Source of the DNA: a bacterium
GTDB taxonomy: Bacteria; SZUA-79; Acidulodesulfobacterales; Acidulodesulfobacteraceae
DNA: 61,809 nucleotides
Direction of reading: 5' to 3'
Assembly: GCA_021850985.1 (NCBI GenBank)
Contig: JAJZJX010000008.1
Span: forward strand, 1 to 61,809
Positions 2,887 to 29,607 of this stretch are shown here, in pieces. The first letter of the stretch is position 1, and every line of letters begins with the position of its first letter. The translations under genes were made by a program, and so were the position numbers. Under the pieces are notes generated by a model. The model was not told the DNA's origin and made no database searches. It saw nothing but the letters and a program-made list of their open reading frames with translations.

Positions 2887-3776
2887 TACCACCATCCCCA
2901 CGGATTAGGTTTGCGGCCATAATGTATCGTGATTTCTTTTTTAGAGTTCTTAGTGCGCGATACTAAAATTATCGTTTTCGGGACACCTCTTAAAACATAA
3001 TACCCGCCTCTATAAACAAAATTCACGAGATATTTCTTTTTAGCGTGTTCTATAAGTAATGCAGGAAGAGGTCCGCCGGCAGCGATCTTTATAAATGTTT
3101 CCTTGCCGTCGTTAAAAACCCTCAATACTTTATATCCCTTTCCCGTTTCGTAATACCTGAAACTCAGTTTACTTATAGAAATAGGCTTATTTGAAACAAG
3201 ATTTTTATGTATTTTAAACGAAACAGCCTTGTAGTTTTTGACGTAGATACCCGGAAAATAAAAACCGACGATAGGCATATACCTGTGTTTGGTAGAAACA
3301 AGATTGAAATAATATAATTTATTTATCGTCGTTACTATCATCGTAGTTCTGAGTTCCGGCTGATTCGGTTTTAACGTGAGATAGTCACCCATGGAGTTAT
3401 GAATCTTTTTAAACATAAAGTTTGCTGAATTTCCGACTGTCACGTTTAAAATCTCGGTTCCTTTCTGAAATTTAATTAAGGTCAGCCGCCTTATTCGCAA
3501 AAATACCGTAGGGGTCGTAATACCGTATGGAAATAATAATTCCCCGTCGTTTAGTTTCACCAACGGATAACGCCCATGGAAATAATGTGTATTAATGTAT
3601 TTTAAGACTAAAATCAGGTTCTCGTTTTTAAGATAATTGTTGCGTTTCGTTCGAGCCGACATAGCAGGCAGGGGTTTAATACCTGTATACTTTACCGCCG
3701 GAATAGCGAAAGATTTTTGTGCTAATCCCGTAATTATCAACACGCTAAAAAATAAAAAGGCCTTAATTTTATTCAT
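2886..3776 (-). CDS. virB9: VirB9/TrbG outer-membrane-complex protein
   Basis: A 296-aa exported protein: hydrophobic signal peptide (residues 1-24), then a beta-rich VirB9/TrbG/CagX domain. A YETGKGYKVLRVFNDGKET stretch near residue 210 and a GGYYVLRGVPKTIILVSR stretch near the end match the conserved C-terminal beta-sandwich that packs on VirB10. It sits between VirB8 and VirB10, the canonical order. Together with VirB7 (not seen, usually a tiny lipoprotein) it forms the outer-membrane ring. Confidence 0.88.
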   Translation of the reverse strand: MNKIKAFLFFSVLIITGLAQKSFAIPAVKYTGIKPLPAMSARTKRNNYLKNENLILVLKYINTHYFHGRYPLVKLNDGELLFPYGITTPTVFLRIRRLTLIKFQKGTEILNVTVGNSANFMFKKIHNSMGDYLTLKPNQPELRTTMIVTTINKLYYFNLVSTKHRYMPIVGFYFPGIYVKNYKAVSFKIHKNLVSNKPISISKLSFRYYETGKGYKVLRVFNDGKETFIKIAAGGPLPALLIEHAKKKYLVNFVYRGGYYVLRGVPKTIILVSRTKNSKKEITIHYGRKPNPWGWW

Positions 3777-3781
3777 TTTTT

Positions 3782-4414
3782 TTATTCCTTTGTATATGAA
3801 AAATATTTAATGTATATTCCCAGCGGATTGGTTTCCGCTTCTTTAAGGGTTTTAGGAGGAATAACGACTACGCCCACGGTTGCTATATAATTCGTGGTAG
3901 TTATAGGCGTTCCGTTTTTATCGACCTCGTTAACAGTAAAACTTACACTGTAAGAGCCGTCGGGCTTTTGCAATATATAGTGAACTTTTACAAGCCTGAG
4001 ATGTTTTTCGAGAAAAGGATTATGTACGCTCAAATAGTGAACTATTACCGCTCTTGCGCCTGTCAGGGATTCTCCCGCTACTTTATTAACCCGCTGTTTT
4101 GTAACTATCTCGGAAGCTATATTACCGAACGTATATTCAATATACTGATTAATATAATATCTAATGACCATGGGTGAAAGTCCTGTATTCTGCGTGAGCG
4201 GTTTTAAAAGCTTTATATCGCGGATATTGTCTGATTTATTTATATATACGACATAAGGAACGACATGAGTTCGTACGGCTTGGGTATAAAAACCTATGCC
4301 CATTATTACGGCTATGGCAAGAGAAAGAACGGCCGCTAACCGCCAATTCTTAGCTTGGTTAATGTAAGTGCCGTATCTTTCGAGCCATTCTTTCCTGGCT
4401 TCTAAATATCCCAT
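3782..4414 (-). CDS. virB8: VirB8/TrbF inner-membrane assembly protein
   Basis: A 210-aa bitopic protein: short cytoplasmic N-terminus, one membrane helix (WRLAAVLSLAIAVIMGIGFY, residues 24-43) and a periplasmic NTF2-like VirB8 domain containing HVVPYVVYINKSDN and a terminal stretch ending LGIYIKYFSYTKE. VirB8 nucleates assembly of the secretion channel and contacts VirB9 and VirB10. It starts 13 nt inside the preceding HTH gene and ends 6 nt before VirB9, so the genes are one transcription unit. Confidence 0.9.
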   Translation of the reverse strand: MGYLEARKEWLERYGTYINQAKNWRLAAVLSLAIAVIMGIGFYTQAVRTHVVPYVVYINKSDNIRDIKLLKPLTQNTGLSPMVIRYYINQYIEYTFGNIASEIVTKQRVNKVAGESLTGARAVIVHYLSVHNPFLEKHLRLVKVHYILQKPDGSYSVSFTVNEVDKNGTPITTTNYIATVGVVVIPPKTLKEAETNPLGIYIKYFSYTKE

Positions 4415-7705: not shown

Positions 7706-8386
7706 TTAATTAGTCTTATATAAATCAAAGTTTGCCGGCGGTGGCGGGGGAGATTTCCATTTTTCTTTTTGTGTACTTTGAACATTTTGCCTTAGTTTTC
7801 TATAAGATTTTCCATAAACTAAAACGGGATTTGCCGAATAATCGTTAACGGCATATACCTGGATATTATTTCCTGTAAAATTTGAGACGGCAAATGCCTC
7901 ATATCCGTTTCCGCAAGAAACATAAGGTTGCGATGGGAGTGCGGGGGGAGATGATAATTTTACAGGAAGCGTTTTACTTGCGGAAGGTAAGGCTTTAATA
8001 AAATAATAAAAATTAATCTTGACCATTGGTGAGAACCCAATAATTGGAAATCCCGACTTTATTTTGCCGGATTTATTTTTAAGTATATTATCTACGCATT
8101 TAAATGGTGGCCGTGCAGTAGAAGGAATTTTCTCAGTATATAATTTATGCGGAAATGTATTTACCGATAAATTTAGTCCTTTAGTTGAGTAATAACCTGC
8201 GCTTATATATGTATCGTTCATTGCGTTAAATGCCATTTCGTCTGTATATATGGCGCCTAAGTCTGTTTTAGCTTCGGAATCTATTTGATTATATATAGCT
8301 GCTTGGTGAGGAGATATATGATTAGAACAACCAGACATTAAAAAAACTGGTAATAGTGCGAATAAAATTAAAAATAATATCTTCAT
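7706..8386 (-). CDS. Lipoprotein with a pilin-like head domain
   Basis: 226 aa. Signal peptide with lipobox FLMSGC (residues 15-20). The following region (TDLGAIYTDEMAFNAMNDTY, about residues 42-61) reads like the segment after the N-terminal helix of type IV pilins, and the later VSCGNGYEAFAVSNFTGNNI block resembles the pilin C-terminal strand region. A proline run (PPPPP) lies near the end. Pilin-type helix and prepilin site are absent, so a lipid anchor may have replaced them. It has its own promoter and an AGGAGG ribosome site. The pilin similarity is by eye, not by search. Confidence 0.55.
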   Translation of the reverse strand: MKILFLILFALLPVFLMSGCSNHISPHQAAIYNQIDSEAKTDLGAIYTDEMAFNAMNDTYISAGYYSTKGLNLSVNTFPHKLYTEKIPSTARPPFKCVDNILKNKSGKIKSGFPIIGFSPMVKINFYYFIKALPSASKTLPVKLSSPPALPSQPYVSCGNGYEAFAVSNFTGNNIQVYAVNDYSANPVLVYGKSYRKLRQNVQSTQKEKWKSPPPPPANFDLYKTN

Positions 8387-8438
8387 ACTTCCTCCTAATT
8401 TACCCTTTAATTTAATTTTTTACGATATCTATATTTAT

Positions 8439-8467
8439 TTTATACAACTAATTTAAGTAATAGTCAA
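8439..8467 (-). promoter_or_regulatory. Promoter of the pilin-like lipoprotein gene
   Basis: -35 TTGACT (8467-8462), 17 bp, -10 TATAAA (8444-8439), followed by a 53-nt leader with AGGAGG before the ATG at 8386. The string from -10 onward is the same as before the genes at 5766 and 7593, but here the ATG has been moved downstream. Confidence 0.6.
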
Positions 8468-8497
8468 ATTTAACCTCATAAAAATACAGGCTAAAAA

Positions 8498-8572
8498 TAA
8501 TTTAATTAAATTAAAGTTGAAAAATAACTTGACATATATTTATTAAAGTTGTATTTTTATAAGTAAGTATTA
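8498..8572 (+). promoter_or_regulatory. Promoter/operator of the rightward operon, copy of 4668-4740
   Basis: -35 TTGACA (8529-8534), 17-bp spacer containing TTATTAAAGTTG, -10 TATTTT (8552-8557). It is nearly identical over 70 bp to the VirB operon promoter, so one regulator probably controls both. Confidence 0.7.
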
Positions 8573-8599
8573 TAAACGCTTAATCTTAAAGAAAAAATT

Positions 8600-8887
8600 A
8601 TGAAAAAAGAAATTAAATCACCTTTCCTGAACGCACACCAAGGGGCAGAGTATTTAAATTTATCCTACACTTATTTCTGCCAGCTGCTACGCGAGAAAAA
8701 AATAAAGCATTACAAAGCCGGTGGGAAAATACTTATCAAAATGAGCGATATTGAAGACTATCTCGAAAGCATCGTAATAAATCCCGAACCGAAAGCAAAT
8801 CCGGCCGGATATTATAAAAATAAATACAAACTAAGAGATAAATATAATGTCGATGATGTAAAAGCTTATTTAAACATTAAAGACTAA
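8600..8887 (+). CDS. Excisionase-like HTH_17 (MerR-type) DNA-binding protein
   Basis: 95 aa. The N-terminal half is a winged-helix excisionase fold: HQGAEYLNLSYTYFCQLLRE, then KKIKHYKAGGKILIKMSDIEDYL. Such proteins act as recombination directionality factors or as activators of element genes. It is the first gene of the rightward operon, directly downstream of the shared promoter. A paralogue of the same fold lies in element 2 at 37955-38215. The C-terminal 40 residues are basic and unrecognised. Confidence 0.75.
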   Translation: MKKEIKSPFLNAHQGAEYLNLSYTYFCQLLREKKIKHYKAGGKILIKMSDIEDYLESIVINPEPKANPAGYYKNKYKLRDKYNVDDVKAYLNIKD

Positions 8888-9074: not shown

Positions 9075-9123
9075 ACATCTTTGGATGAAATAATCCAAAG
9101 AGCAACAAACAGAGGAGGTAGTT

Positions 9124-10107
9124 ATGGGACAAATAAAGTGGATTAAAATAACCACAGACATATTCGACGATGAAAAAATAAAATTAATCGACAGTATGCC
9201 GGAACGAGACACTATTTTAGTAATTTGGCTAAAGCTACTGACGCTCGCCGGTAAAAGCAACAGAAGCGGTTACCTGCTCTTTTCGGACAATATCCCTTAC
9301 GATGACGAAATGCTATCGACTTTATTTAATCGTCCGATTAATTCTATTCGCCTTGCTATCGGAACTTTTAAAAAATTTGGAATGATAGTCGTCGAACATT
9401 TTTCGGATTCGGAGAAAGAGATTTTATATATATCGAATTGGGAGAAACATCAGAATATCGACGGGATGGAGAAAATAAAAGAACAAAGTAGGTTAAGGGT
9501 AGAAAGATACAGACATAAACAAAAATTGTTAAATAATAAAAAACCTTGTAACGTTACAAGTAACGTTACAGTAACGCAAAGTAACGCAATAGATATAGAT
9601 ATAGATATAGATAAAGATATAATACCCCCCCTACCCCCCAAAAGTTTTGAAAATGAAAAATGCGAGGGGGATTTAATTTCAAACCAAAACTTAAAAGCAC
9701 TCGGTGAAAAGTATTCGGAAAAAGAAGTAAAAACCGCTTACAGTTTTTTAAAGCACTTAATAAAACAAGGTAAACAAATCAAAGACCCCCTCGCATTTTT
9801 ATTCACGCTTCTAAAAAACAAAACCTACGAAGATATAACGGAAATTGAAGCACAGCGGCAGAAAAAAGAAAATGAAGAACGTAAAAGTAAACTGCAGTTG
9901 CGTAAACAGCGGGAATTAGACAACTTTTTAGACAAAAAAACAGAAGAAATATTTGAAAATATGAGCCAGGAAGAAGTAACAGAAAAAGTAAGCGAAATTA
10001 AAAAAACACTGGAATGCGATGAAAAATTAAAAGACGGATTAGCTTTATTAACTCTAAAGGCACAGATTAGAAAGGATTTAGAGTTTCAAAGGGTTAATAC
10101 TTCTTAG
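9124..10107 (+). CDS. Phage-type replisome organizer / replication initiator
   Basis: 327 aa. The N-terminal domain (residues 3-115: IKWIKITTDIFDDEKIKLID, then ILYISNWEKHQN) matches the phage replisome organizer N-terminal family, a winged helix that binds origin repeats. The centre is a low-complexity linker with four GTAACG-encoded repeats and IDIDIDIDKDI, and the C-terminal half is a charged coiled coil expected to contact helicase loader or helicase. The coding sequence itself holds iteron-like repeats (9548-9586), as in lambda O. A good AGGAGG site precedes the ATG. It implies the element can replicate when excised. Confidence 0.78.
   Translation: MGQIKWIKITTDIFDDEKIKLIDSMPERDTILVIWLKLLTLAGKSNRSGYLLFSDNIPYDDEMLSTLFNRPINSIRLAIGTFKKFGMIVVEHFSDSEKEILYISNWEKHQNIDGMEKIKEQSRLRVERYRHKQKLLNNKKPCNVTSNVTVTQSNAIDIDIDIDKDIIPPLPPKSFENEKCEGDLISNQNLKALGEKYSEKEVKTAYSFLKHLIKQGKQIKDPLAFLFTLLKNKTYEDITEIEAQRQKKENEERKSKLQLRKQRELDNFLDKKTEEIFENMSQEEVTEKVSEIKKTLECDEKLKDGLALLTLKAQIRKDLEFQRVNTS
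9548..9640 (+). other. Candidate replication origin inside the initiator gene
   Basis: Four GTAACG repeats at 9548, 9560, 9571 and 9581 (10-12 bp apart, about one helical turn), the first two extended to the palindrome GTAACGTTAC. They are followed by an AT-rich ATAGAT tandem array (9589-9620) that could melt, and two C runs (9625-9639). The layout mirrors origins embedded in phage initiator genes. Confidence 0.5.
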
Positions 10108-10112
10108 GATTT

Positions 10113-10213
10113 TCCAACGGTGAAATATTTAGTTATGCGACAAAAGACGAACTCAAAAGCAAAGAAGAAGACTTTACAAAAGCTTTAACAGAAATAAATA
10201 AATTAAAAATATA
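10113..10213 (+). pseudogene. Orphan 3' end related to the gene at 11448-11813
   Basis: About 30 codons ending in a stop read EIFSYATKDELKSKEEDF and then TKALTEINKL. This is about 80 percent identical in DNA to the tail of the gene at 11448-11813 (positions 11724-11811). No start codon is present. It is one of four detached gene tails in this stretch, each lying before an intact small gene. Confidence 0.7.
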
Positions 10214-10230
10214 ATAATGGAGGTAAAACA

Positions 10231-10557
10231 ATGACAAAGAAAGAACTAATTAAGTCTATTTCTAAAAAATCAGGCATTTCTAATGTCGATGCCAAAAAGG
10301 CATTAAATGCCTTTACTGAAACAGTTATTGAGGAACTTAGAGAAGGAAGTCATGGGCAGACTAATTATGGACATCAAGTAACTATAACGGGTTTTGGCAC
10401 ATTCTGGATGCGTTGGAATTTGCCGAGAATGTATAGAAACCCACGGACAGGTAAAAAAATATATGTCAAATCGCGTTATACCCCAACATTTAAACCTGGA
10501 AAATGGTTAAAAGAGGCAGTTATTATATCGGAAAATGAGCCTGAATCAGAAAACTAA
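10231..10557 (+). CDS. HU/IHF-family DNA-bending protein
   Basis: 108 aa, slightly longer than HU. MTKKELIKSISKKSGISNVD at the N-terminus and ITGFGTFWMRWN followed by RNPRTGKKI are the HU signatures; the arm region RTGKKIYVKSRYTPTFKPG fits the DNA-inserting beta ribbon. The middle (REGSHGQTNYGHQ) carries an insertion relative to classic HU. It probably assists replication, recombination or relaxosome assembly. Ribosome site GGAGG 8 nt upstream. It follows the orphan tail at 10113-10213. Confidence 0.88.
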   Translation: MTKKELIKSISKKSGISNVDAKKALNAFTETVIEELREGSHGQTNYGHQVTITGFGTFWMRWNLPRMYRNPRTGKKIYVKSRYTPTFKPGKWLKEAVIISENEPESEN

Positions 10558-10583
10558 GTGGTGTGGAAAATATAAGTAAGGTA

Positions 10584-10613
10584 ATACTTTTAAATAACTT
10601 TTTAGGGGTATAA
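10584..10613 (+). pseudogene. Orphan 3' end related to the gene at 14905-15513
   Basis: About 30 nt (TTAAATAACTTTTTAGGGGT core, then ATA) are identical to the last codons of the kinase-like P-loop gene (15487-15513, encoding NNFLGV and stop). It precedes the 71-aa gene at 10626. Confidence 0.6.
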
Positions 10614-10625
10614 AGGTTAGAAAAT

Positions 10626-10841
10626 ATGAGATTAGAAAATGTAATTTTAGTTATAACTGCGTTATCGGCGTTATCGGATACGCTTGTTTTAGCAAACACA
10701 AAAATCGATAAAAAAGGCCGCGGTGTTATATTGCAAAAAAAAGAGGTAGGCGAACAATTTGCGAACGTTTTTAATAATAAAGAATTTAACGCTAACGGCA
10801 AGCGGTATCGAATAATTATAGAAGAAACCGATGCAAAATAA
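10626..10841 (+). CDS. Small hypothetical protein (71 aa)
   Basis: 71 aa with a mildly hydrophobic N-terminus (VILVITALSALSDTLVL, residues 6-22) and a basic rest (FNANGKRYRIIIEETDAK). Unknown family. It follows the detached tail of the P-loop gene, suggesting that this cassette moved together with the end of its former upstream neighbour. No strong ribosome site (AGGTTAG). Confidence 0.45.
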   Translation: MRLENVILVITALSALSDTLVLANTKIDKKGRGVILQKKEVGEQFANVFNNKEFNANGKRYRIIIEETDAK

Positions 10842-10857
10842 TCGGGATAATAACATA

Positions 10858-10901
10858 TGAAGAATTAAATAGAAACGATGTGGTTTGGTTAAGCTGGTAG
10901 G
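10858..10901 (+). pseudogene. Orphan 3' end related to the gene at 11226-11414
   Basis: Codons EELNRNDVVWLS then W and stop repeat the C-terminal EELNRNDVVWLSCSQ of the gene at 11226-11414 with very few base changes. No start codon. It lies just before the 84-aa gene at 10909. Confidence 0.7.
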
Positions 10902-10908
10902 TGTAAAA

Positions 10909-11139
10909 ATGTCATTAAATAACAAGAAAATTGAAGATAAGCTTTTAATAGATTTAGGTTTTGACCCAAAACTTTATGCTTTTAAAGAAGGTACTTTAAA
11001 AGCTATTAAAAACAACTTAGTAGTATTTGTAACGAATAGATATCAGGTTGAAATCTATTATGATAAACGAAAAAAAGAATTGGTAGATAAAAGAATATAT
11101 CTTTTCGTAATAAAAAAGTTAAAAAATGAATATGAATAG
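10909..11139 (+). CDS. Small hypothetical protein (about 76 aa)
   Basis: The likely ATG is at 10909 (MSLNNKKIEDKLLIDLGFD); a TTG at 10885 is in frame but falls inside the orphan tail. Basic alpha/beta protein with KNNLVVFVTNRYQVEIYYDK in the middle. No recognised family. GTAGGTGT is a weak ribosome site. Confidence 0.5.
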   Translation: MSLNNKKIEDKLLIDLGFDPKLYAFKEGTLKAIKNNLVVFVTNRYQVEIYYDKRKKELVDKRIYLFVIKKLKNEYE

Positions 11140-11147
11140 GAACATTT

Positions 11148-11207
11148 TTGCGGAACACAAGGTCTATATTTGATTTAAACAAAGAAAAGCAGTTAAATTT
11201 ATTTTAG
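11148..11207 (+). pseudogene. Orphan methyltransferase-like C-terminal tail with QLNLF
   Basis: An open stretch reading FDLNKEKQLNLF and stop is almost the same as the tail at 13660-13696 (NKEDQLNLF). QLNLF is a clamp-binding type motif often found at the end of methylases and repair proteins. No start codon. It precedes the gene at 11226. Confidence 0.55.
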
Positions 11208-11225
11208 CTAAACAAAGGAGGCATA

Positions 11226-11414
11226 ATGACAGTAAAAGAATTAAAAAAAGAATTAAATAAATTTGATGAAAATCTTGAAGTATTAATCGATTATTTTGAC
11301 ATTAAATCTTTTCCAATTGTAGTTGTTTTAAAAAGCAAACCTTGCAAAGAAGACGATGAAGAAGGCGAAGAGTTAAATAGAAACGATGTAGTTTGGTTAA
11401 GCTGTTCGCAATAA
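11226..11414 (+). CDS. Small acidic hypothetical protein (62 aa)
   Basis: 62 aa: MTVKELKKELNKFDENLEVL start, an alpha/beta pattern, then a strongly acidic patch (EDDEEGEE, residues 44-51) and NRNDVVWLSCSQ. Small phage-like proteins starting TVKELKKELNKF are common in mobile DNA but have no assigned role. Good AAAGGAGG ribosome site. Its 3' end is duplicated at 10858-10901. Confidence 0.55.
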   Translation: MTVKELKKELNKFDENLEVLIDYFDIKSFPIVVVLKSKPCKEDDEEGEELNRNDVVWLSCSQ

Positions 11415-11447
11415 TATAATCATAAAAAAATAAAGGAGGATAAAAAA

Positions 11448-11813
11448 ATGATAGCTCAATATTTAACAACAGATAAAGGTTTCGTTAAGAAAATCATTCT
11501 TAACGATGTTCTAAACAGCCATAACGATATGCTTACTTTTTATGTAACTTTTATGGAAAAAGCCTTTTTAATGGAGAACTACGAAGATATGCCAGAAATT
11601 ATGGACGATGCATATTTAATATCCGACGATAGACACACGCTTTTTGATATTAATCCGGATTTAAAAGAGCCGACCAAAGAAATTGCTAAAATTCTTAAAA
11701 TATACGAATTGAAATGTGAAAACAGCGAGATATTTACATATGCAACAAAAAATGAACTTGAAAACAAAGAAGAAGACTTCGCAAAAGCTTTGACGGAAAT
11801 AAATAAATTATAA
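11448..11813 (+). CDS. Hypothetical acidic protein (121 aa)
   Basis: 121 aa, mainly helical and acidic (MPEIMDDAYLISDDRH in the middle, KEEDFAKALTEINKL at the end). No membrane segment or recognised motif. AAGGAGG ribosome site 9 nt before the ATG. The 3' third is duplicated as an orphan tail at 10113-10213, which shows the gene has taken part in local reshuffling. Confidence 0.5.
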   Translation: MIAQYLTTDKGFVKKIILNDVLNSHNDMLTFYVTFMEKAFLMENYEDMPEIMDDAYLISDDRHTLFDINPDLKEPTKEIAKILKIYELKCENSEIFTYATKNELENKEEDFAKALTEINKL

Positions 11814-11839
11814 AAAATTTTTTAAAAGGATATCAAACA

Positions 11840-12556
11840 ATGGACGAAGTAATTTTAACGCATTCCATAACAACTAAAAATAACACAAACAATATTCTTG
11901 TAATCGGCGCATGCGAAACAAGCAAAACAGAATTTTTCGTTAAACCTAACTTACTTTCTATTTCCGATAATATCATAGCAATAAGCGGAGATAACGACGG
12001 ATTATTAGAAAAAACGGCGTCTTTCAGAAAAGAAAAACTAAAACAAAAAATATTTACACAAGAAACTTTTAAAGAAAATATAAAAGACTTAGATTATTTT
12101 GGAGATAAGTACACATTATATCTTACCGCTTCGCATTTAGACAAAAACGAAAGAATCAATTTATTACATTATACGTTCGGTTGGATTATGGATTGCATAT
12201 ATTATTCTGCGCCTAAAAAACCTATTACGATAATAATAGACGATTTATCTTTATTTCCGATATGCGGCGATATTATGACTCATAAGGTAGATAACGTTAG
12301 AATAATCGCTACGGTTCAAAGTATAGATGTTCTATATCAAACATACAAACATCCTGAAAAAATTCTTAATTCATTCGGTATAAAAATGTTTTTTCATACT
12401 AATGGTCTAAACGACGCCGAATATATGTCGTCATCGTTTATATCAAAAGAAATGGCAGCGAATTTAAAATCTGACGAAGCTCTTATCATAGGACTTTTAG
12501 ATAATCCTATAATAGCAAACGACAAGATTCTGCATTGGTGGAGTTATGGCAAATAA
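11840..12556 (+). CDS. Degenerate, shortened VirD4/TraG-like ATPase
   Basis: 238 aa, less than half of a coupling protein. NILVIGACETSKTEFFVKPN (residues 18-37) aligns by eye with the Walker A region of TraG/VirD4 proteins, but the glycine before Lys is Ser (GACETSKT, 23-30). A Walker B-like IIIDDLS follows at 131-137, and LYLTASHLDKNERINLLHY resembles the segment before it in full-length members. The N-terminal membrane helices and the all-alpha domain are missing. It may be a remnant or a repurposed accessory of conjugation. The real coupling protein is at 21440. The last 11 nt overlap the methylase gene. Confidence 0.55.
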   Translation: MDEVILTHSITTKNNTNNILVIGACETSKTEFFVKPNLLSISDNIIAISGDNDGLLEKTASFRKEKLKQKIFTQETFKENIKDLDYFGDKYTLYLTASHLDKNERINLLHYTFGWIMDCIYYSAPKKPITIIIDDLSLFPICGDIMTHKVDNVRIIATVQSIDVLYQTYKHPEKILNSFGIKMFFHTNGLNDAEYMSSSFISKEMAANLKSDEALIIGLLDNPIIANDKILHWWSYGK

Positions 12557-13382
12557 ACTAACCCCCTTCGGATACTTTGGAGGTAAATATTTTATGACGG
12601 ACAAAATAATCCCGTTATTTCCTAAACATAAAACTTATGTTGAAGTCTTTGGCGGGTCCGGCGTGATACTGATAAATAAAAAGCCGTCAAATATAGAAGT
12701 CTATAACGATATAGACGGAGAGCTTTATAATTTTTTTAAGGTTATAGCCGACGAAAAGCTGTTTAAGAAATTTCAGGAAAAAATAAGCTTATTGCCGTAT
12801 AGCCGCCAATGTTATTACGAATACAGGACAATGGATATAAGCAAATTAAATATTACAGAAAGAGCGGTTAGGTTTTGGTATTTAATTAAATCAACAAGAC
12901 ACAGCACTTATGAATATACAGGCTGGAAGTTTTCAGTTGAGGCCAATATGCCGAAAAGAATAAAGAATATAGATAAATTAAGTCTTATTCATAGCAGGCT
13001 TTCTAATGTTTATATCGATAATTTAAATTTTAGAAAATTAATTAAAAACTGGGACAGGCCCGACACTTTTTTCTATCTCGACCCGCCCTACGTGGCAAGC
13101 TCCCGCAAAAGCGGCGGTTATATGTTCGAGATGGCAGACGAAGACCACAACGACCTTATAGACATTCTTTTGAATATCAAAGGCAAATGGCTTTTAAGCG
13201 GTTACGACAACGAGATTTATAACGACAGGCTTTCAGATTTTTACAGGCAGGATTTTAACTGTTTCGCTAATAGCTTGAGATACAGGAATAAAGATAATTG
13301 TCCGGCACGGACGGAAACCGTCTGGGCAAATTACGATTTAAACAAGCAAGGGCAAAACCTTTTGCTATTTGAGGGAGCGTAA
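12546..13382 (+). CDS. D12-class (Dam-like) N6-adenine DNA methyltransferase
   Basis: 278 aa. Motif X/I FGYFGGK (residues 8-14) and VEVFGGSGV (32-40) bind AdoMet, and the catalytic motif IV is DPPY (179-182), which defines the alpha-type D12 class. Orphan methylases of this type protect mobile elements from host restriction. No matching endonuclease is adjacent. It overlaps the truncated VirD4-like gene by 11 nt. Confidence 0.88.
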   Translation: MANKLTPFGYFGGKYFMTDKIIPLFPKHKTYVEVFGGSGVILINKKPSNIEVYNDIDGELYNFFKVIADEKLFKKFQEKISLLPYSRQCYYEYRTMDISKLNITERAVRFWYLIKSTRHSTYEYTGWKFSVEANMPKRIKNIDKLSLIHSRLSNVYIDNLNFRKLIKNWDRPDTFFYLDPPYVASSRKSGGYMFEMADEDHNDLIDILLNIKGKWLLSGYDNEIYNDRLSDFYRQDFNCFANSLRYRNKDNCPARTETVWANYDLNKQGQNLLLFEGA

Positions 13383-13388
13383 ATTTTT

Positions 13389-13696
13389 ATGAGCATATTA
13401 TTTAATCAAGATGATTTTTATAGAGACTCTTCCGGATTAATGATCCCTAAAACTTGTTTACCGGAAAAACGCTTGATAGCGATGGATTTCTTTTCCGGTA
13501 TAGGCGGATTTAGTCTCGGATTAATACAATCCGGTATTAACGTAATAGCGGCCGTAGAGATGCGCTTAAAAAATCCCTTACTTTAACTGCCGGCGCAGGC
13601 GGAGCTTTTAAAAGCACACATAGTATTAAGAAAAATAAAAAGAAAACGGCTAAAAAAAGGCTAAAAAACAAAGAAGATCAGTTAAATTTATTTTAA
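13389..13696 (+). pseudogene. C5-cytosine methyltransferase with internal deletion and frameshift
   Basis: Codons 1-57 encode the N-terminus of a Dcm-type enzyme, including motif I MDFFSGIGGFSLGLIQSG, with an upstream MSILFNQDDF leader. Then the frame runs to a stop at 13584-13586. From about 13570 another frame (DALKKSLTLTAGAGGAFKST, later NKEDQLNLF) gives a methylase-like C-terminal tail with stop at 13694-13696. The central part with the catalytic PCQ loop and target-recognition domain is gone, so the gene is dead. Confidence 0.75.
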
Positions 13697-13710
13697 AGGA
13701 GGCAAGAAGA

Positions 13711-14142
13711 ATGTATTTAATTAATAGTATCAAAAAGTTTTTAAAAATCAAAGAAGTGCCGAGAATAGAATCTATTAAAACATACGAGGATGTAAATCTG
13801 TTTTTAAAAGGATATAAAAATTATTTTAAGCTTAATTGGACTGATTTTTTTGATAATCGTGTATGGGTTTTTGCTTTTATAAGTAATGGCCAAAAAATTA
13901 CAATTATAAAATCACCTTATAATACAACTTATCAGATATCTGATGGTGTATCGACGTATCGAGAACTATATATAAGGGCATTTATATATGACCATAAAGA
14001 TGAAATCAACGAACGGCTTTTAATTAAACAGCAAATTCAAATAATTAAACAGCAAATTCAAAGCGAAACAGAAAAAGAATTCTTGCGGAGAAAAACACTC
14101 GAAGAGCAAATTAAAAATACAGGAGGAAGTAAAAATGTTTAA
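13711..14142 (+). CDS. Hypothetical protein with short glutamine-rich repeats
   Basis: 143 aa. An N-terminal alpha/beta region with aromatic residues (WTDFFDNRVWVFAFISNG) and a C-terminal helical stretch with two IKQQIQ repeats (about residues 109-120), likely a coiled coil. Unknown family. AAAGGAGG ribosome site. Its last 8 nt overlap the next gene, so the two are probably co-translated and may work together at the membrane. Confidence 0.5.
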   Translation: MYLINSIKKFLKIKEVPRIESIKTYEDVNLFLKGYKNYFKLNWTDFFDNRVWVFAFISNGQKITIIKSPYNTTYQISDGVSTYRELYIRAFIYDHKDEINERLLIKQQIQIIKQQIQSETEKEFLRRKTLEEQIKNTGGSKNV

Positions 14143-14425
14143 ATTTTTAAATAATTATAAAAAATTGCCAGAAAATAAGCAGATTTTTGAATATCTTGGA
14201 CTGTCAGCTTGGTTTTTATTTCTCACAATTATACAAATAGGTTTATTTGAATATTTAAAAGACACTACGAAAAATCTTAAATCATTTATTATTTATGCCA
14301 ATAAGCCTTTAACCTATGCGTATATATCTACTATCGCAACATATGGACTTTCTATTGGTTTTTTTATTATAAGTTTTTTTATGTTTATAAGAAAGAAACG
14401 TTTATCTAAAAAAAATGAATTATAA
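14135..14425 (+). CDS. Hypothetical two-helix membrane protein
   Basis: 96 aa with two predicted membrane helices (about residues 25-45, LSAWFLFLTIIQIGLFEYL, and 65-88, TYGLSIGFFIISFFMFI) and a basic C-terminus RKKRLSKKN. No recognised family. Overlaps both neighbours by 8-11 nt. GGAGG ribosome site inside the preceding gene. Confidence 0.5.
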   Translation: MFKFLNNYKKLPENKQIFEYLGLSAWFLFLTIIQIGLFEYLKDTTKNLKSFIIYANKPLTYAYISTIATYGLSIGFFIISFFMFIRKKRLSKKNEL

Positions 14426-14858
14426 TTTTCGACCTATAAGCTTAAAAGTCGCAAATAACTTTGTTTTAGCAAATCACCGCCACAACAAGCCAGTTGCAGG
14501 TCATAAGTTTTCGATAGGACTTGTTGACAACAACGAAAAACTTGTAGGCGTCGCAATTTGCGGCCGTCCCGTCGCACGCATGCTTGACGATGGATTAACA
14601 TTAGAGGTTTTAAGGGTTTGCACGGACGGGACTAAAAACGCAAACTCAATGCTTTATAGTAGAGTTAAAAAAATCGCTCAGGTTATGGGCTATAAAAAAG
14701 TTCTTACTTATACATTGACAGAAGAAAGCGGTTCGTCTTTAAGAGCTGTAGGAGCTGTAAAAGACGGAATAGTAAAGGCGCGGGAATGGTCGAGAGAAAA
14801 AAGAAAAAGAAATAGTCAAGATGTATATAAAAAGGAGAAAGTAAGATGGATTTTATAG
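14415..14858 (+). CDS. XF1762-like (Mom/GNAT-related) phage protein
   Basis: 147 aa. FVLANHRHNKPVAGHKFSIG (residues 16-35), VAICGRPVARMLDDGLTLEV and LRVCTDGTKNANSMLY match, from memory, the XF1762 family found in phages and plasmids, a GNAT-like fold related to the Mom DNA-modification protein. Such proteins may modify bases to evade restriction. This would add to the methylase cluster here. The assignment rests on motif memory, not a search. Confidence 0.6.
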   Translation: MNYNFRPISLKVANNFVLANHRHNKPVAGHKFSIGLVDNNEKLVGVAICGRPVARMLDDGLTLEVLRVCTDGTKNANSMLYSRVKKIAQVMGYKKVLTYTLTEESGSSLRAVGAVKDGIVKAREWSREKRKRNSQDVYKKEKVRWIL

Positions 14859-14908
14859 AAAATTCAAAAGGCAATGAAAATTTAATGAATAAAGAGGTGT
14901 ATGTATGA
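14846..14908 (+). CDS. Possible 20-residue leader peptide
   Basis: ATG at 14846 with a strong AAAGGAG site 6-10 nt upstream, then MDFIENSKGNENLMNKEVYV and a TGA that overlaps the ATG of the P-loop gene (ATGA). It overlaps the end of the preceding gene by 13 nt. It may couple translation between the two genes, or be the tail of a lost gene. Confidence 0.35.
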   Translation: MDFIENSKGNENLMNKEVYV

Positions 14909-15513
14909 AAACTGGAGTTTCCGGAGCTGTCGGAATTGGAAAAACGGCGTTTATAGAAGGCTTAGACGGCTCTATTTTCTTGAAAGTTGACGAAGCGGCT
15001 CGTCAGGTGAATGCGATGTATCCAGATAAGAAAAATGAAGAATTAAGGGAGTTGATTTTCCATCACCAGTTCTCGGTTGAAGAAGTTGTAGGTAGAATTA
15101 ACGAAGACTTGATAGCTGTATTCGACAGGACCATAATCGACAATATCGTTTTTATGGAATTATTTGCCGGAAAGGAAATTGCGGAAAGCAAAAAGAATTT
15201 TATAAAAACGGCTTATTTAAGTGATTTCAAGAAGTACGATATAGTTTATTATTTCGATTACGGAACCCAAATTGATTTAGATTTGCTTAGAGAGACGTTA
15301 TCCGATCCTTTCAGGAAAAAGACTTTAGGGGAGTTTGCGGAAATTGATAAATTTATGAATTTCAATAAAAGATTTAAAGAAATTTTTTTAAGAACTGCGG
15401 AAGAACTTGGAACTAAAGTCGAAGTGGTTTATTCGGATTACGACGAATTCAACTTAAGAAAGAGAAATGAAATGTTATCGAGTAAGATTTTAAATAACTT
15501 TTTAGGGGTATAG
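14905..15513 (+). CDS. AAA_28-type P-loop NTPase/kinase-like protein
   Basis: 202 aa with Walker A GAVGIGKT at residues 7-14 and a FDRTIIDNIVFMELFAG stretch at about 72-88, typical of small nucleoside-kinase-like P-loop proteins of the AAA_28/NadR group found in phages. It probably phosphorylates a nucleotide-type substrate; which one is unknown. Translationally coupled to the 20-residue ORF. Its last codons are copied at 10584-10613. Confidence 0.65.
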   Translation: MKTGVSGAVGIGKTAFIEGLDGSIFLKVDEAARQVNAMYPDKKNEELRELIFHHQFSVEEVVGRINEDLIAVFDRTIIDNIVFMELFAGKEIAESKKNFIKTAYLSDFKKYDIVYYFDYGTQIDLDLLRETLSDPFRKKTLGEFAEIDKFMNFNKRFKEIFLRTAEELGTKVEVVYSDYDEFNLRKRNEMLSSKILNNFLGV

Positions 15514-15526
15514 GAGGTAGATTACT

Positions 15527-15763
15527 ATGAACTGCGTTATGAACGGCGGATACGCCGCAAAAAATTATGAAGTCGGAAAAAAAGAATCGATTTTATTACA
15601 ATTAGAATTTCAAGGGATATGCGAAAGGGGTGATTACGCCTTATTTCCGGTCGATGTCGGTGATTTTAAACTATATACTATTAAATTCCGCACGTCTCCA
15701 GTAAGTTCTATGTATGAAAGCGTGGATGCGGCGGTCGAAGAATTTATTAAATTAACTCATTAA
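15527..15763 (+). CDS. Small hypothetical protein (78 aa)
   Basis: 78 aa, alpha/beta, with MNCVMNGGYAAKNYEVGKKE at the start and a helical end (SVDAAVEEFIKL). GGAGG ribosome site 8 nt upstream. No recognised family; short phage/plasmid-type gene between the P-loop gene and parA. Confidence 0.5.
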   Translation: MNCVMNGGYAAKNYEVGKKESILLQLEFQGICERGDYALFPVDVGDFKLYTIKFRTSPVSSMYESVDAAVEEFIKLTH

Positions 15764-15784: not shown

Positions 15785-16402
15785 ATGAAGATTATTTCAG
15801 TTCAAAATTCAAAAGGTGGGGTAGGAAAAACTACTCTAGCGATTAATATCGCAAAATATTTATCAATGGGTTGTAATAGCAAAACTATCCTTTATGACGC
15901 TGATCCGCAAAGGACGGCGTATGATTGGCATTGTATTAAAGAGGATAAATCCTTTGAAGTAATCCCTATCGATAATCCTAAACTACTTGAATCTTCAATA
16001 GAAAAAGGTGATTACAATTATGTAGTAATTGATAATCCGCCTGCAATGAGCCAGTTTTTTATAACTAGCATTAAACTAGCAAACTATCTCGTTGTACCTG
16101 TTTCAAGTTCGGCCTTTGATATTTGGGGACTATCGAGCTTAATAGATACGATAAATATGATTTCAAAAGATTTCAGTATAATTTTTGTTCATAACAAAAT
16201 TATTCGAAATGCAAAGATTGGTAACGAGATAAGGGAAGCCCTTGAAAAAATTGAAATTAATAAAAAAAATTCGGTACATGAAGTTTTATTCCGTCAAAGC
16301 TATCCTAAGTCATCCCTTTTAGGTGAAACCGTCTTTGATACCGACGACTCTCATGCGCAAGCTGAAATAGAATTTATCGTAGACGAAATTTTAAATAATT
16401 AA
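15785..16402 (+). CDS. parA: ParA-type partition ATPase
   Basis: 205 aa, a small ParA without an N-terminal HTH. Deviant Walker A KGGVGKTT (residues 10-17), Walker A' YDADPQRTAYDWH, and a DNPPA motif in place of the usual D-x-PP switch. It drives segregation of the excised element or helps maintain it. GGAGG ribosome site. It lies 11 nt before parB, the standard parAB order. Confidence 0.9.
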   Translation: MKIISVQNSKGGVGKTTLAINIAKYLSMGCNSKTILYDADPQRTAYDWHCIKEDKSFEVIPIDNPKLLESSIEKGDYNYVVIDNPPAMSQFFITSIKLANYLVVPVSSSAFDIWGLSSLIDTINMISKDFSIIFVHNKIIRNAKIGNEIREALEKIEINKKNSVHEVLFRQSYPKSSLLGETVFDTDDSHAQAEIEFIVDEILNN

Positions 16403-16413
16403 AAGGAGGGAAT

Positions 16414-17391
16414 ATGGACTTAAAAAGACCATCTGGACAGACAGTGTCAGATATACTAGGTAAAGATATGGCGACTATAGCCAGGGAGTTAAACGACCCA
16501 GGCATCACTAATGAGATTAAATTAAACGGCATAGAACTTAATGTCAATGAAATAATAATCAAAGACAGAAAACGTCAAGCCGATGATGAGAAAGTTGACG
16601 AGATTATTAAAAGTGTTAAAGAGATAGGTCTTTTAAATCCTATCTCGGTAAACAAGACGGATGAAGGCTATGTTTTAATTGCAGGACTGCATAGACTAAC
16701 GGCTTATAAACGTCTTGGATATAACAGAATCCAAGCGGTTATAGTGAATATGGATGATATTCACTCTGAACTTGCCGAAATAGACGAAAATCTTGTAAGA
16801 GCGGAACTTCATTATTTAGACAGAGCGGAAATGCTTAAACGTCGTCAAGAGATATACGAAAAATTATATCCGGATTTTGCTAAATCCGAAAAAGTAAAAA
16901 AGAATTTAAAACAGTTTAATTCCACCGAAAACGAAACCGTTTCGTTTTCGGACAAAGGCAGTAATAATGAGAGTTTGAATGGTGAAAAAAAAGACGAAAA
17001 TTTTGTTTCCGATACGGCCAAAAAAACAGGATTATCGGAAAGAACTGTTCAACAGGATTTACAACTTGCAAAAAATTTAGATAAAGGAGTTAAAGAAAAA
17101 ATTAAAAAAAACAAAATATCTAAAGGCGACGCGTTAAAAATAGCAAGAGAGAAAAAAGAAAAGCAGGCGGAACTTTTAAAAAATATAGCAGATACGCCGA
17201 AGGCTAAACCTGCCGATAATTCAACTATCGGACAAAACATACTAAGTCTTAAAATAGGCGATCTTATAGAGAAATTTAATTCTTTGACGCAAGTTGTTAG
17301 GATAAACAGCATTGATGAACATACGATAAATATCTGGACAGAAAATCCTGAAATACTCAAAGATATTATCGCAGGAATTAAAAAATATTAA
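16414..17391 (+). CDS. parB: ParB-family partition protein
   Basis: 325 aa. ParB/Srx N-terminal domain (residues 40-135) with GLLNPISVNKTDEGYVLIAG and LHRLTAYKRLG, then an HTH region (SDTAKKTGLSERTVQQDLQL, about 195-214) and a coiled C-terminus. The domain order is that of ParB, which binds parS and loads along DNA. The gene contains a 27-bp perfect palindrome at 16925-16951, a candidate parS. AAAGGAGG ribosome site. Confidence 0.9.
   Translation: MDLKRPSGQTVSDILGKDMATIARELNDPGITNEIKLNGIELNVNEIIIKDRKRQADDEKVDEIIKSVKEIGLLNPISVNKTDEGYVLIAGLHRLTAYKRLGYNRIQAVIVNMDDIHSELAEIDENLVRAELHYLDRAEMLKRRQEIYEKLYPDFAKSEKVKKNLKQFNSTENETVSFSDKGSNNESLNGEKKDENFVSDTAKKTGLSERTVQQDLQLAKNLDKGVKEKIKKNKISKGDALKIAREKKEKQAELLKNIADTPKAKPADNSTIGQNILSLKIGDLIEKFNSLTQVVRINSIDEHTINIWTENPEILKDIIAGIKKY
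16925..16951. repeat. 27-bp perfect palindrome in parB, candidate parS
   Basis: Two 13-bp arms, CCGAAAACGAAAC and GTTTCGTTTTCGG, around a single central C. Palindromes of this quality are rarely coding accidents. The core GAAAC/GTTTC recalls the half sites of parS. It lies in the weakly conserved linker region of ParB. Confidence 0.55.
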
Positions 17392-17403: not shown

Positions 17404-20376
17404 ATGCTGACGATTGGCGGGATAGACGAAAAATTAACCCCTGAAATCTGCGAGGATTATTTTCAAAAGCAAAAAGAGCAATTCGAATTAGGCGAATACT
17501 ATGCGAACCAAAATTCAGAAACGTTTTATGGCGGACTTGCAAATAAATTCGTGGGAGAACAGATATTAGAACAATCTCAGTCTTCCGTGTCAGGCGAAAA
17601 GCATGTAGCGCTTAAATCAGGCAGAACGTTTAGAGAGTTTTTGAACGGCAAAGATTCTATCGATATGACCTATACAGCTCCAAAGTCGGTTTCTATAATG
17701 GCGGAACTTACTAAAAACGAAGAACTTAGAAAAAAGCTTATAGAAATTCATAATAACTCTGCCTGCGGAGTTATGCGATACGTCGAAGAGAATCTTGCAT
17801 ATACCCGCAAGTCGCACAGAGAAAACGGTAAAAAAATTTATGACCCCGTATATCCAGGAAAAATAGAATATGCGGCATTTTTACATCATGATACAAGGGA
17901 GGTTGATCCGAACTTGCATATTCACTGCATTATTCCTAAAAGATTATATGTTAGGGGGCAGGAATATGCTCTTGAGGTAGGGTACTCTAAAACTGCTGGT
18001 AAAAAAAATATACTTGATAATAAAATACGACTCGGCGAATATTACCGAGCGCTTGAAATCAACCAATTAAGACAGAGTGATATTGCTGTTAAAATTACAG
18101 ATTATAAGCATTTTTTCTTTGAATTAGAAGGGGTGGAAGAGAAAACATTAGAAACCTTTTCAAAACGCTCAGAGCAAATAAAAAGCGAATACGAGAAGAT
18201 TAAAGATGGTGTTGCAGTTGGCAGCGAAGCGGAGGTCAAAGCAAAGATAGCATTAGAAACCAGAAAGAAAAAAGATTCGAGCGTGCCGCTAAATGAGTTA
18301 AGGGCGAAATGGGAGGCAGAAAGCCCCCAAAAGGATATCGTTCCTGTTATAAAGTCTGTTAAGATGGCTAATGCGGACGATATCGCCGCAGCTTTAAAAT
18401 CTGCAACAGCAAAATTAACGGGAAATAAAGCTCCAATAACTGATTTAGATTTAAGAGTTGCGGCAATGAAACATTTAATCTATAACGACTTAAAGTTTAA
18501 CGAAGAAGATATAAATTTAAAAATTAAAGAAATGTTTAAGCGCAGAGAACTCGTTAAATTAGACGCCGACGGTTTTTTTTTAACTACAAAAGAAATAAGA
18601 ATGGCGGAAACAAAAATTCAGTCTTTCGCTAAAAATACTTTCGAAAAATACGAAAGTATCGTCGAAAAGGATTCCATAAAAAATGTAATAGAGGAATGGG
18701 AGAAGAATGAAACGGAAAAATTTAAAAAAGAGAAAGGCAAGGATTTTTCTTTAACTGGAGACCAAAATAAAGTACTTGAGGCTCTGCTTACAACTAAAAA
18801 CGGAGTAACGGTAATCCAAGGCGATGCAGGAACCGGTAAGACTACTCTTTTAAAAGCTTTTTACGAAATAACTAAAGCCAGAGGCGTGGAATTGGCGGGT
18901 TTATCCACGACCGGTAAAGCTGTTAAAGAAATCGTAGAGCAAAGTATGATTGATTCAAAAACTATCGACAGTCATATTTTGCAAGGGAAAAATATCAAAG
19001 AATTTACGGATTCCAACGGTAAAAAAGTATATATTGTCGACGAGTCGTCGATGAACGCGACTTTAAAAATTAAAGAAGTAATAGAACTTGCGGAAAAAGA
19101 AAACGCAAGGGTTATTTTAATCGGCGATATAAAACAGCTTGCTTCTATTCAAGCGGGCGGGATGTTTGAACGTTTGCAGAAATCTAAAAACGTTACGTTT
19201 GTCGAAATGCATGAATCAATTAGGCAAACCGATCCGTTTTTAAAAGAAGCGGTCAAAATTATAGCCAAAGGTAAGATTAAAGAGGGTATGAAAATGCTGG
19301 ACGAGAAAGGGAAAATTCATGTACATGAAAATAAAGAAGAATTGTACGATAAAATTACTGACGCTTTTGTTAATGAAGGCAATATGGATAATTTTATTTT
19401 ATCTGCGCAGAATAAAGACCGCTACGAACTCAATAAAATCACGCGTGAAAAATTAAAACTTGCAAAAGCGATAGACGAAGAAGATTTTGAAATTAAAATC
19501 AGAGAAGGAAAAAATATCGGAGACGAAGATAAGAAAAATTTTTGGAATTATGAAAAAGGGGATGTCGTCGTAAGAGGAAAACATAATTACAAAATTAATA
19601 ATGTGGATTTAGAAAATAAATCGGTTAGTGCAATAGATTTATTTTCAAGAAAAGAAATTTTAATGTCGGGCAATAAATTAAAATCGAATCAGGTTTATAT
19701 CGAAGCGGAAAGAAAATTTTCAAAAGGAGATAAAATTATTTTTTTGAAAAATGATTATCATATTGAAGTCATAAAAGATGGCGTAGATAAAAAAGAGCAT
19801 GGAGTACAAAATGGCCTTAGCGGAATAATTAAAAACATTGAAAGATTAGATAGCGAAAATTGTAAAATTTCGGTTGACATAGGAAAAGGGAAGACGGCTA
19901 TTTTTGAAACTAAAGATTATAATTATTTTACTCACGGTTATGCGATAACGAGCTATAAGTCGCAAGGGCAGACTGCGGAGAAAGTTTATATATTTTCCGA
20001 TAGAACGACTAAGAATGAATTCTATGTGAACGTTTCACGCGCAAAACAAAATATAGAAATATTCACAATGGATAAAACGTTATTATTTAAGACCGCGCTA
20101 AAAGATGATAAACAAGTTGATAGTATAACGTTTGAAAATAGAAACTATAGAAATTATTCGATTATCGAAAATATTTTGAATAAAATTCAAAAAATCGATA
20201 CGTCGATCCCGTCTATGGAAGAACTTAAAGAAAAATTTGAAAAGGAAAATTTAAGAAAAGAATTTCAAAAGCCAAAAACGGAGAAAAAGGAAAAAGAAAA
20301 TCAGGAAAAAAAGGAAAAAACTTTTTCTGGAGAAAAACCGGCGGAGAGCAAAAAAATTTCCCGAAAACTAATATAG
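17404..20376 (+). CDS. MobF-family (TrwC/TraI-like) conjugative relaxase-helicase
   Basis: 990 aa. N-terminal relaxase domain (1-310): candidate nicking tyrosines Tyr32 and Tyr33 (GEYYANQN) with Tyr19 nearby, and the 3H metal site HHDTREVDPNLHIH (161-174; His161, His172, His174). The helicase half starts at about 440 with Walker A GDAGTGKT (473-480), then a Walker B VDESS and helicase motifs including a final TSYKSQGQTAEKVY. MobF relaxases cut oriT and unwind the strand for transfer. The last 60 residues are a Lys/Glu-rich tail. It sits directly upstream of the oriT-like region and the coupling protein. Start ATG with AGGAGA ribosome site. Confidence 0.95.
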   Translation: MLTIGGIDEKLTPEICEDYFQKQKEQFELGEYYANQNSETFYGGLANKFVGEQILEQSQSSVSGEKHVALKSGRTFREFLNGKDSIDMTYTAPKSVSIMAELTKNEELRKKLIEIHNNSACGVMRYVEENLAYTRKSHRENGKKIYDPVYPGKIEYAAFLHHDTREVDPNLHIHCIIPKRLYVRGQEYALEVGYSKTAGKKNILDNKIRLGEYYRALEINQLRQSDIAVKITDYKHFFFELEGVEEKTLETFSKRSEQIKSEYEKIKDGVAVGSEAEVKAKIALETRKKKDSSVPLNELRAKWEAESPQKDIVPVIKSVKMANADDIAAALKSATAKLTGNKAPITDLDLRVAAMKHLIYNDLKFNEEDINLKIKEMFKRRELVKLDADGFFLTTKEIRMAETKIQSFAKNTFEKYESIVEKDSIKNVIEEWEKNETEKFKKEKGKDFSLTGDQNKVLEALLTTKNGVTVIQGDAGTGKTTLLKAFYEITKARGVELAGLSTTGKAVKEIVEQSMIDSKTIDSHILQGKNIKEFTDSNGKKVYIVDESSMNATLKIKEVIELAEKENARVILIGDIKQLASIQAGGMFERLQKSKNVTFVEMHESIRQTDPFLKEAVKIIAKGKIKEGMKMLDEKGKIHVHENKEELYDKITDAFVNEGNMDNFILSAQNKDRYELNKITREKLKLAKAIDEEDFEIKIREGKNIGDEDKKNFWNYEKGDVVVRGKHNYKINNVDLENKSVSAIDLFSRKEILMSGNKLKSNQVYIEAERKFSKGDKIIFLKNDYHIEVIKDGVDKKEHGVQNGLSGIIKNIERLDSENCKISVDIGKGKTAIFETKDYNYFTHGYAITSYKSQGQTAEKVYIFSDRTTKNEFYVNVSRAKQNIEIFTMDKTLLFKTALKDDKQVDSITFENRNYRNYSIIENILNKIQKIDTSIPSMEELKEKFEKENLRKEFQKPKTEKKEKENQEKKEKTFSGEKPAESKKISRKLI

Positions 20377-20647
20377 TGTTGCTTCGCAAATTTTAATTAG
20401 AAAAAGCAAAGGCAAATATAGTGAAAAACTATTTAATTAGAAAAAAGCAAAAGACTTTTTATTATAGTGTGCTTCGCACATTAATTAAAAAATACAAAAA
20501 CTTTATTATAGTGGCTTCGCATTTTATTAAATTCGTTTATGACAGTTTTTCGTTAATGTTCTATATAGAATTTATGACTATTTTTTATTATAGTGTGCTT
20601 CGCATTTTTATTAGAAAAAGCAAAGCTATTATAGTGTGCTTCGCACA
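20372..20647 (+). repeat. Array of TATAGTG-hairpin repeats (five to six copies)
   Basis: TATAGTGTGCTTCGCACA or slight variants occur at 20372, 20463, 20507, 20589 and 20630, and a copy lacking the hairpin (TATAGTG only) at 20417. Spacings are 45, 46, 44, 82 and 41, so about 4 helical turns per unit with one skipped. The core TGTGC-TTC-GCACA forms a hairpin. The first copy overlaps the relaxase stop codon. Likely protein-binding sites of the relaxosome. The open frame across this region is repeat-driven and probably not a gene. Confidence 0.65.
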
Positions 20648-20676
20648 TTATTACAAAAGGCAGATATACAGGTACA

Positions 20677-27740: not shown

Positions 27741-27759
27741 TATAAAAATTAATTGGCAA

Positions 27760-29603: not shown

Positions 29604-29607
29604 ATAT

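Follow-up and report, generated by a model that had tools for sequence, protein, structure and literature searches.

Orphan gene ends in the cargo region of a MobF/T4SS conjugative element of the Acidulodesulfobacteraceae

Phage mosaicism is currently explained by two standing models, illegitimate recombination with selection for function or recombination at short boundary homologies, and the modules are bounded at gene boundaries (PMC3233612). In the mycobacteriophage Island3, a 60-bp 3' end is repeated in genes 67/68, beside a small gene that was gained or lost (PMC3029335). In orphan CDI/Rhs toxin-immunity modules, a displaced 3' end is kept together with the next gene, and the tail is the toxin domain (PMC4927057).

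The locus compared here with these systems lies in a window of 61,809 nucleotides, which is one whole contig (C69) of a 1.9 Mb genome in 84 contigs. As in mosaic phages (PMC3233612), unrelated genes are joined near gene boundaries, breaks inside genes give rise to chimeras, and no boundary sequence is common to the junctions: the orphan tails listed below (T1-T4) match well only their own parents. Unlike in mosaic phages, the exchanges affect a conjugative element's (MobF/T4SS) cargo, and most genes still have the 3' remnant of a former neighbour before them, in some cases nested. As in Island3, a gene's 3' end recurs close by, next to the gain or loss of a small gene; in Island3 the shared end lies within the next gene's own 3' end, whereas the tails described here are detached, non-coding, derived from several source genes and placed before the next gene. 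The resemblance to the CDI/Rhs orphan modules is that a displaced 3' end and the next gene form a unit, a fossil record of past exchanges. The CDI/Rhs tails are coding toxin tails selected with the immunity gene, whereas those of this locus are 30-100 bp of ordinary cargo genes. No toxin/immunity pairing was found: the tails come from DUF1828-like, kinase-like, HTH, methylase and 62-aa genes, and the genes behind them encode an HU-like protein and unknowns.

Integron gene cassettes also carry one small gene per exchanged unit, but each ends in a common attC site, and the system has an IntI-type integrase. Here, each tail derives from a different gene, the junctions have no sequence in common, and sequence comparison of the tails found no shared site of the attC type (T1-T4 against each other, blastn in the window: no match between any two). 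The case works like phage mosaicism and Island3 and was filed there; it is not a CDI/Rhs module and, as far as tested, not an integron cassette.

The host element and its cargo region

The left part of the window is a MobF/T4SS conjugative element, in which a TrwC-type relaxase, a coupling protein and T4SS genes were found, as follows:

1684-4414: VirB8/9/10-like ORFs (by inspection only)
15785-17391: ParA and ParB (Pfam profile search)
17404-20376: TrwC-type relaxase (PF08751, E 8e-44)
21440-23227: coupling protein (PF10412, E 1.3e-67)

Other parts of the window were recorded separately. The non-coding stretch between the relaxase gene and the next gene (20377-20851) contains repeated TATTATAGTGTGCTTCGCA units, was also matched in the related loci L042 and L055 (87% and 65%), and is possibly the transfer origin region. 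A short non-coding sequence (8366-8625), which recurs in either orientation in related loci (L014, L042, L045, L060), is a candidate dispersed repeat. A second island, with a provisional extent of 24428-40000, apparently starts right after tRNA-Arg (24159-24235) and has its own integrase (24428-25468), a phage-type tyrosine recombinase according to Pfam and the only integrase examined.

DNA methylases, a Mom-like gene, a kinase gene and small genes lie between the replisome-organiser gene (9124-10107), the left border of the cargo, and parA. The right border is a 78-aa gene, which adjoins parA in every examined relative possessing it (L042, L050, L052, L055, L060). In L060, a minimal form, the homologue of the replisome-organiser gene is directly followed by the 78-aa-gene homologue and ParA. 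Because L060 carries no cargo between the same borders, positions 10108-15526 may all count as cargo. The stretch from the replisome-organiser gene to parA is probably where an integrative or conjugative element keeps its accessory (cargo) genes, a view held jointly with the explanation given in the last section. The Mom-like match at 14415-14858, beside the Dam and C5 methylase genes, is weak (PF25680, E 0.0034, below cut-off). Taken together, the cargo genes resemble a set for DNA modification or anti-restriction.

Relatives were taken from 30 genomes for the entire phylum (family included), and the related loci are metagenome assemblies. Among plasmids, the whole region matched just two, both Gram-positive, and these only along the N-terminal part of the replisome organiser; viral contigs queried with the Dam and DUF1828-like proteins yielded a single distant locus (L072) and no informative match.

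The cargo features and tails are listed below; all are on the + strand.

9077..9121, +: T0, orphan tail from an excisionase-like HTH gene (HTH_17), standing before the replisome-organiser gene
9124..10107, +: replisome-organiser/DnaD-like helicase-loader gene (PF09681, E 1.3e-48; phrog_4880, phrog_186)
10116..10208, +: T1, orphan 3' end of a DUF1828-like gene, before the HU-like gene
10231..10557, +: HU-like DNA-binding protein, 108 aa (PF00216, E 2.4e-25)
10581..10613, +: T2, orphan 3' end of a kinase-like (AAA_28) gene, before the 71-aa gene
10626..10841, +: 71-aa gene, with relatives in L050 (78% aa) and L042 (61% aa)
10859..10899, +: T3, orphan 3' end of a 62-aa gene, before the 76-aa gene
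10909..11139, +: 76-aa gene, without relatives
11145..11174, +: T4a, putative 3' end of a further cargo gene (family x7), nested upstream of T4b
11177..11207, +: T4b, orphan 3' end of a C5-cytosine methylase gene, reading NKEKQLNLF and stop, before the 62-aa gene
11226..11414, +: 62-aa gene, T3 parent type, with relatives in L061 (64% aa) and L042 (66% aa)
11448..11813, +: DUF1828-like gene, T1 parent type (PF08861, E 5.6e-6), with relatives in genomes G016, G023 and G003
12594..13382, +: Dam-type (D12) adenine methylase (PF02086, E 1.8e-25)
13389..13697, +: broken C5 methylase, T4b parent type, a 65-aa open frame (5' part) joined to its own 3' tail
14905..15513, +: kinase-like gene, T2 parent type (AAA_28, PF13521, E 3.7e-5, below cut-off; phrog_2107 thymidylate kinase, E 2.6e-7), adjoining the 78-aa gene
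15527..15763, +: 78-aa gene

Orphan tails and the genes around them

The preliminary description had reported four orphan tails matching the ends of genes further downstream. Tails were searched by blastn against the 61.8-kb window, and the matches were confirmed with E-values of 7.6e-22 (T1), 9.3e-7 (T2), 9.1e-10 (T3) and 3.6e-6 (T4b). All are sense matches that reach the parent's stop codon or nearly, and all four parents lie downstream of their tails in the window. The inventory of four was incomplete, since T0 and the nested T4a were found in addition.

T0 matches the last 46 bases of L055_6 (80% over 46 columns, E 5e-6 to 9e-6), with 6/8 differences at third codon positions; in L055 the parent is intact, and the full HTH gene directly precedes the corresponding replication gene. 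For T1, positions 10116-10230 match 11721-11839 (78% over 119 columns), and the translation of the tail ends in GEIFSYATKDELKSKEEDFTKALTEINKLKI and stop, that of the parent in SEIFTYATKNELENKEEDFAKALTEINKL and stop. T1 retains the parent's frame without an in-frame ATG, differs from its own-element parent at third codon positions in 9 of 16 cases, and is closer to L042_16 (84%, E 1e-20) than to the window's own copy at 11448-11813 (78%). The T2 match, which ends in LNNFLGV and stop, joins 10581-10621 to 15482-15521 (85% over 41 columns); against the end of the kinase-like gene (14905-15513) T2 is 93.75% identical over 32 columns. Of its differences counted by codon position, 1/1 is at a third position. 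T3 (10859-10896 against 11367-11404, translation EELNRNDVVWLS) shares 36/38 bases (95%), and both differences from the local 62-aa gene are at third codon positions.

Two tails, T4a and then T4b, stand nested before the 62-aa gene. The fourth tail (11148-11207) had been assigned to the methylase as a whole, an assignment that stands for 11177-11207 but not for the upstream half (11145-11174), the tail of an L043_6-type gene. T4a is the weakest tail (86.7% over 30 bases with the end of L043_6, E 0.001-0.002) and, judged by these 30 bases, could alone still be chance similarity. T4b (11177-11206) matches 13666-13695 with 28/30 bases (93%), ending in QLNLF and stop, and has 25/30 bases in common with the intact methylase L041_11, with 3/5 differences at third codon positions. 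The methylase tail at 13696, previously named as the parent, thus matches, but this parent is itself broken: 13389-13558 corresponds to one end of L041_11 (276 aa) and 13561-13697 to the other, and the ~0.52 kb between them are missing compared with L041. Its 3' tail directly precedes a 143-aa gene at 13711. The methylase C-terminus QLNLF, kept in T4b, looks like a possible sliding-clamp binding motif.

Because the differences from the parents are mostly at third codon positions, the tails appear to have diverged mainly while still coding. They also seem to differ in age and source, since T1 is nearer to the L042 gene (84% against 78%) and T3 is 95% identical to the local gene. A divergence of 5-22% between tail and parent excludes a simple assembly duplication. 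The earlier view that the tails are gene ends, neither independent small genes nor chance matches, is borne out by the E-values, sense bias, stop alignment and third-position differences.

Each tail was said to precede an intact small gene. Judged from sequence comparison, the HU-like gene (Pfam match) and the 71-aa and 62-aa genes (relatives with third-position bias) look real: 29/48 differences between the 71-aa gene and its L050 relative are at third codon positions, and the differences of the 62-aa gene from its relatives are biased in the same way. For the 76-aa gene, no relative was found among the 30 genomes (family and phylum) or in phage records, and thus no donor. Searches for the HU source outside the window gave only other HU genes with at most 48% identity and no source for the HU unit.

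Junctions and rearrangements in related elements

For the assessment of tail frequency, 208 co-directional gaps in related mobile-element loci were scanned, along with 208 gaps from chromosomal stretches within this bacterial family. Sense tails were present in 20/208 mobile-element gaps and 4/208 chromosomal gaps (Fisher p 0.0011), a contrast inflated to an unknown degree, as the control stretches were chosen arbitrarily and the number of related copies differs between the sets. The 20 gaps include at least two hits to a repeated non-coding stretch; under a strict cut without these hits, 11 and 1 gaps remained (p 0.006). Antisense tails occurred in 3 mobile-element and 2 chromosomal gaps (of 208 each). 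Hits at 20377-20851 and at L055 12610-13046 were set aside as repeated non-coding stretch. Dam fragments in L048 and L041 were excluded for another reason: there the tail is part of the neighbouring gene, which has a frameshift or an early stop.

Within the window cargo, 5 of the 10 gaps carry a tail and a sixth (13587-13710) holds the broken methylase tail. The first tail in a gap starts 2-23 bp after the previous stop codon, and the next start codon lies 45-50 bp beyond the start of T0, T2, T3 and T4b, 81 bp beyond that of T4a and 115 bp beyond that of T1. The right side of a junction is therefore roughly a translation initiation region in size, and the left side almost nothing.

This tail geometry and the scan place junctions at or near gene boundaries. 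The proposal that breakpoints fall in gene ends holds for this cluster, but some breaks lie inside genes. In L050 (9562-10473), a kinase tail (last ~49 residues) is fused in frame to Dam, giving a 303-aa chimera whose join shares only a few bases; replication genes with swapped or shared C- or N-halves among the relatives provide further breakpoints of this kind. Truncated 5' ends (heads) are also present, at 13389-13586 in the window and at L055 7174-7536, and the surviving heads are short open frames. Between otherwise unrelated coding genes, C-end and N-end sharing was equally common (10 vs 10), so a one-directional effect inside genes was rejected, and nothing points to a mechanism that targets 3' ends.

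Related elements of the same family carry the same kind of scars, including one (L042) in the genome G016 (5 contigs, 99% complete). Three routes to an orphan tail were seen: relocation with the downstream gene, in-place replacement of the upstream gene, and tandem duplication. The first is documented by the 71-aa gene. In L050, ~150 bp of kinase tail lead into the 71-aa gene, which has the 78-aa gene as its next neighbour, before parA; in the window, a 33-bp kinase tail and the 71-aa gene stand at the left end of the cargo, nearly 5 kb from the 78-aa gene. T2, the leader and the 71-aa gene are all collinear with L050, and this is a real case of one tail-plus-gene unit at two positions in two elements.

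The second route is seen in L055, where a 48-bp tail, adjoining a truncated methylase head, precedes the homologue of the 78-aa gene; in L052 a full 120-aa gene occupies the same place. Here the downstream gene stayed and its upstream neighbour was replaced in place. The third route is represented by L055 15434-17388, which contains a full W_36 gene, x42, x43, a 47-bp W_36 tail (96%) and a second x42 and x43. The repeated unit (W_36 gene tail, MNT-like gene and HEPN-like gene, family names assigned by inspection) stands directly behind the full W_36-gene unit and arose by tandem duplication. The MNT-like/HEPN-like pairs have near-identical ends and divergent cores. The near-identical ends were observed to consist of the upstream-gene tail with the start of the first gene, and of a common C-terminal tail of the second gene.

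In L042, the homologue of the 62-aa gene follows 129 bp of the 3' end of a different C5 methylase, and two genes with a DUF1828-type C-terminus are present. A TnpB-like gene (L042 8732-10261, sequence inspection only) is inserted in the cargo directly before this methylase tail and the 62-aa-gene homologue. In L060, a 24-41 bp sequence occurs in three intergenic gaps (8142-8181, 2832-2865, 9109-9146) and also inside parB, and these repeats are possible partition sites.

It had been anticipated that each cassette would recur elsewhere behind its upstream gene. This was found for the kinase tail with the 71-aa gene, which has a longer tail in L050, and for the L055/L052 pair of tail and full gene, but it is not supported as a general rule. 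Likewise, exchange as units of tail and gene is seen in the one relocated unit; set against it are the in-place replacement in L055/L052, the L055 tandem duplication, the intragenic breaks, the heads and the two small genes (HU-like and 76-aa) for which no donor was found.

Origin and meaning of the tails

Illegitimate or short-homology recombination combined with selection probably explains the set of tails better than a dedicated cassette system (rough probability 0.8). Under this explanation, cargo genes would be gained, lost, duplicated and replaced via recombination that needs little or no homology; the breaks would occur with little regard to sequence and surplus DNA would be lost over time. 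The junctions that survive would be those with a complete upstream gene and a downstream gene that keeps its ribosome-binding site and leader, and the junction geometry (2-23 bp on the left, mostly 45-50 bp on the right) fits the survival of breaks that spare the previous gene and the next translation start. Long untranslated stretches inside an operon may also be disfavoured through transcriptional polarity. With genes packed 10-25 bp apart, a gene's leader would contain the last 30-100 bp of its former upstream neighbour. When the neighbour is removed, or the gene is copied elsewhere, the tail would remain attached as a non-coding fossil; repeated rounds would give nested tails, and a break before the stop codon and in frame would give a chimeric protein. 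The leader would thus be mostly the old neighbour's end, and tails may be retained as leader or simply not yet lost. The recombination pathway itself is presumably illegitimate or dependent on short homology. The order of tails and parents, together with their ancestry, argues against any single simple mechanism.

Local tandem duplication followed by 5' erosion, in which full-length second copies were once present and only their tails are left, is an unlikely explanation of the set. A duplication of this form does exist in L055, T3 is 95% identical to the window's own gene, and L042 has its two DUF1828-type C-termini; the affinity of T1 to another element's gene, by contrast, means that T1 is no simple local copy. 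A full-length parent upstream of the tail with adjacent copies was found in L055 15434-17388 and not in the window, where the order of parent and orphan is reversed compared with a fresh duplication.

Somewhat less likely still is a dedicated or homology-driven (Campbell-type) exchange of cassettes, in which the old neighbour's tail and the gene are mobile together; recombination between the tail, used as a homology handle, and the 3' end of any full-length copy would insert the gene behind that copy. The kinase tail and 71-aa gene at two positions in two elements agree with such an exchange, the L055 array has exactly the make-up expected from one such crossover or from a tandem duplication, and the 60-bp shared 3' ends of Island3 genes 67/68 are a precedent (PMC3029335). 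Yet a full-length parent is then expected upstream of each tail, and the four parents in the window are all downstream; moreover, the downstream gene stayed where it was when the L055/L052 tail formed, the two partners share just a few bases at the Dam-kinase junction, and the tails have no sequence in common. That tails serve as homology handles is compatible with the L055 array and the relocated 71-aa gene, but these do not prove it. That the detached tails are reusable recombination handles, making up a site-free cassette system with gene 3' ends as attachment sites, is more doubtful again.

It is very unlikely that the tails are functional (leader peptides, regulatory RNA or independent small genes) and selected for their own sake. 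Their place is indeed within the next gene's translation initiation region, and the spacing to its start codon clusters at 45-50 bp. T1, however, is without an in-frame ATG in the parent's frame, the tails originate from unrelated genes, and their differences are patterned as in the parent coding sequence and not as in a separately conserved element. Chance similarity in low-complexity AT-rich sequence or an assembly artefact, suggested by the ~30% GC of the region and the ~30 bp of the shortest tails, is negligible in view of E-values down to 7.6e-22, the sense/antisense asymmetry, the stop-codon alignment, the divergence from the parents and the scars in other assemblies, and is refuted for T1-T3.

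The principle behind recombination with little or no homology followed by selection is already known from phages (PMC3233612, PMC3029335); new is its extension to a conjugative element of a sparsely sequenced bacterial group, with nested tails. The tails supply short direct repeats across the cargo, which could feed further rearrangement. They show what a gene in a packed operon has to take along when it moves, namely its leader and hence the tail of its old neighbour. Because the remnant before each gene names a former neighbour, one genome is enough to read earlier gene orders, and the cargo of this element keeps an unusually legible record of its turnover.
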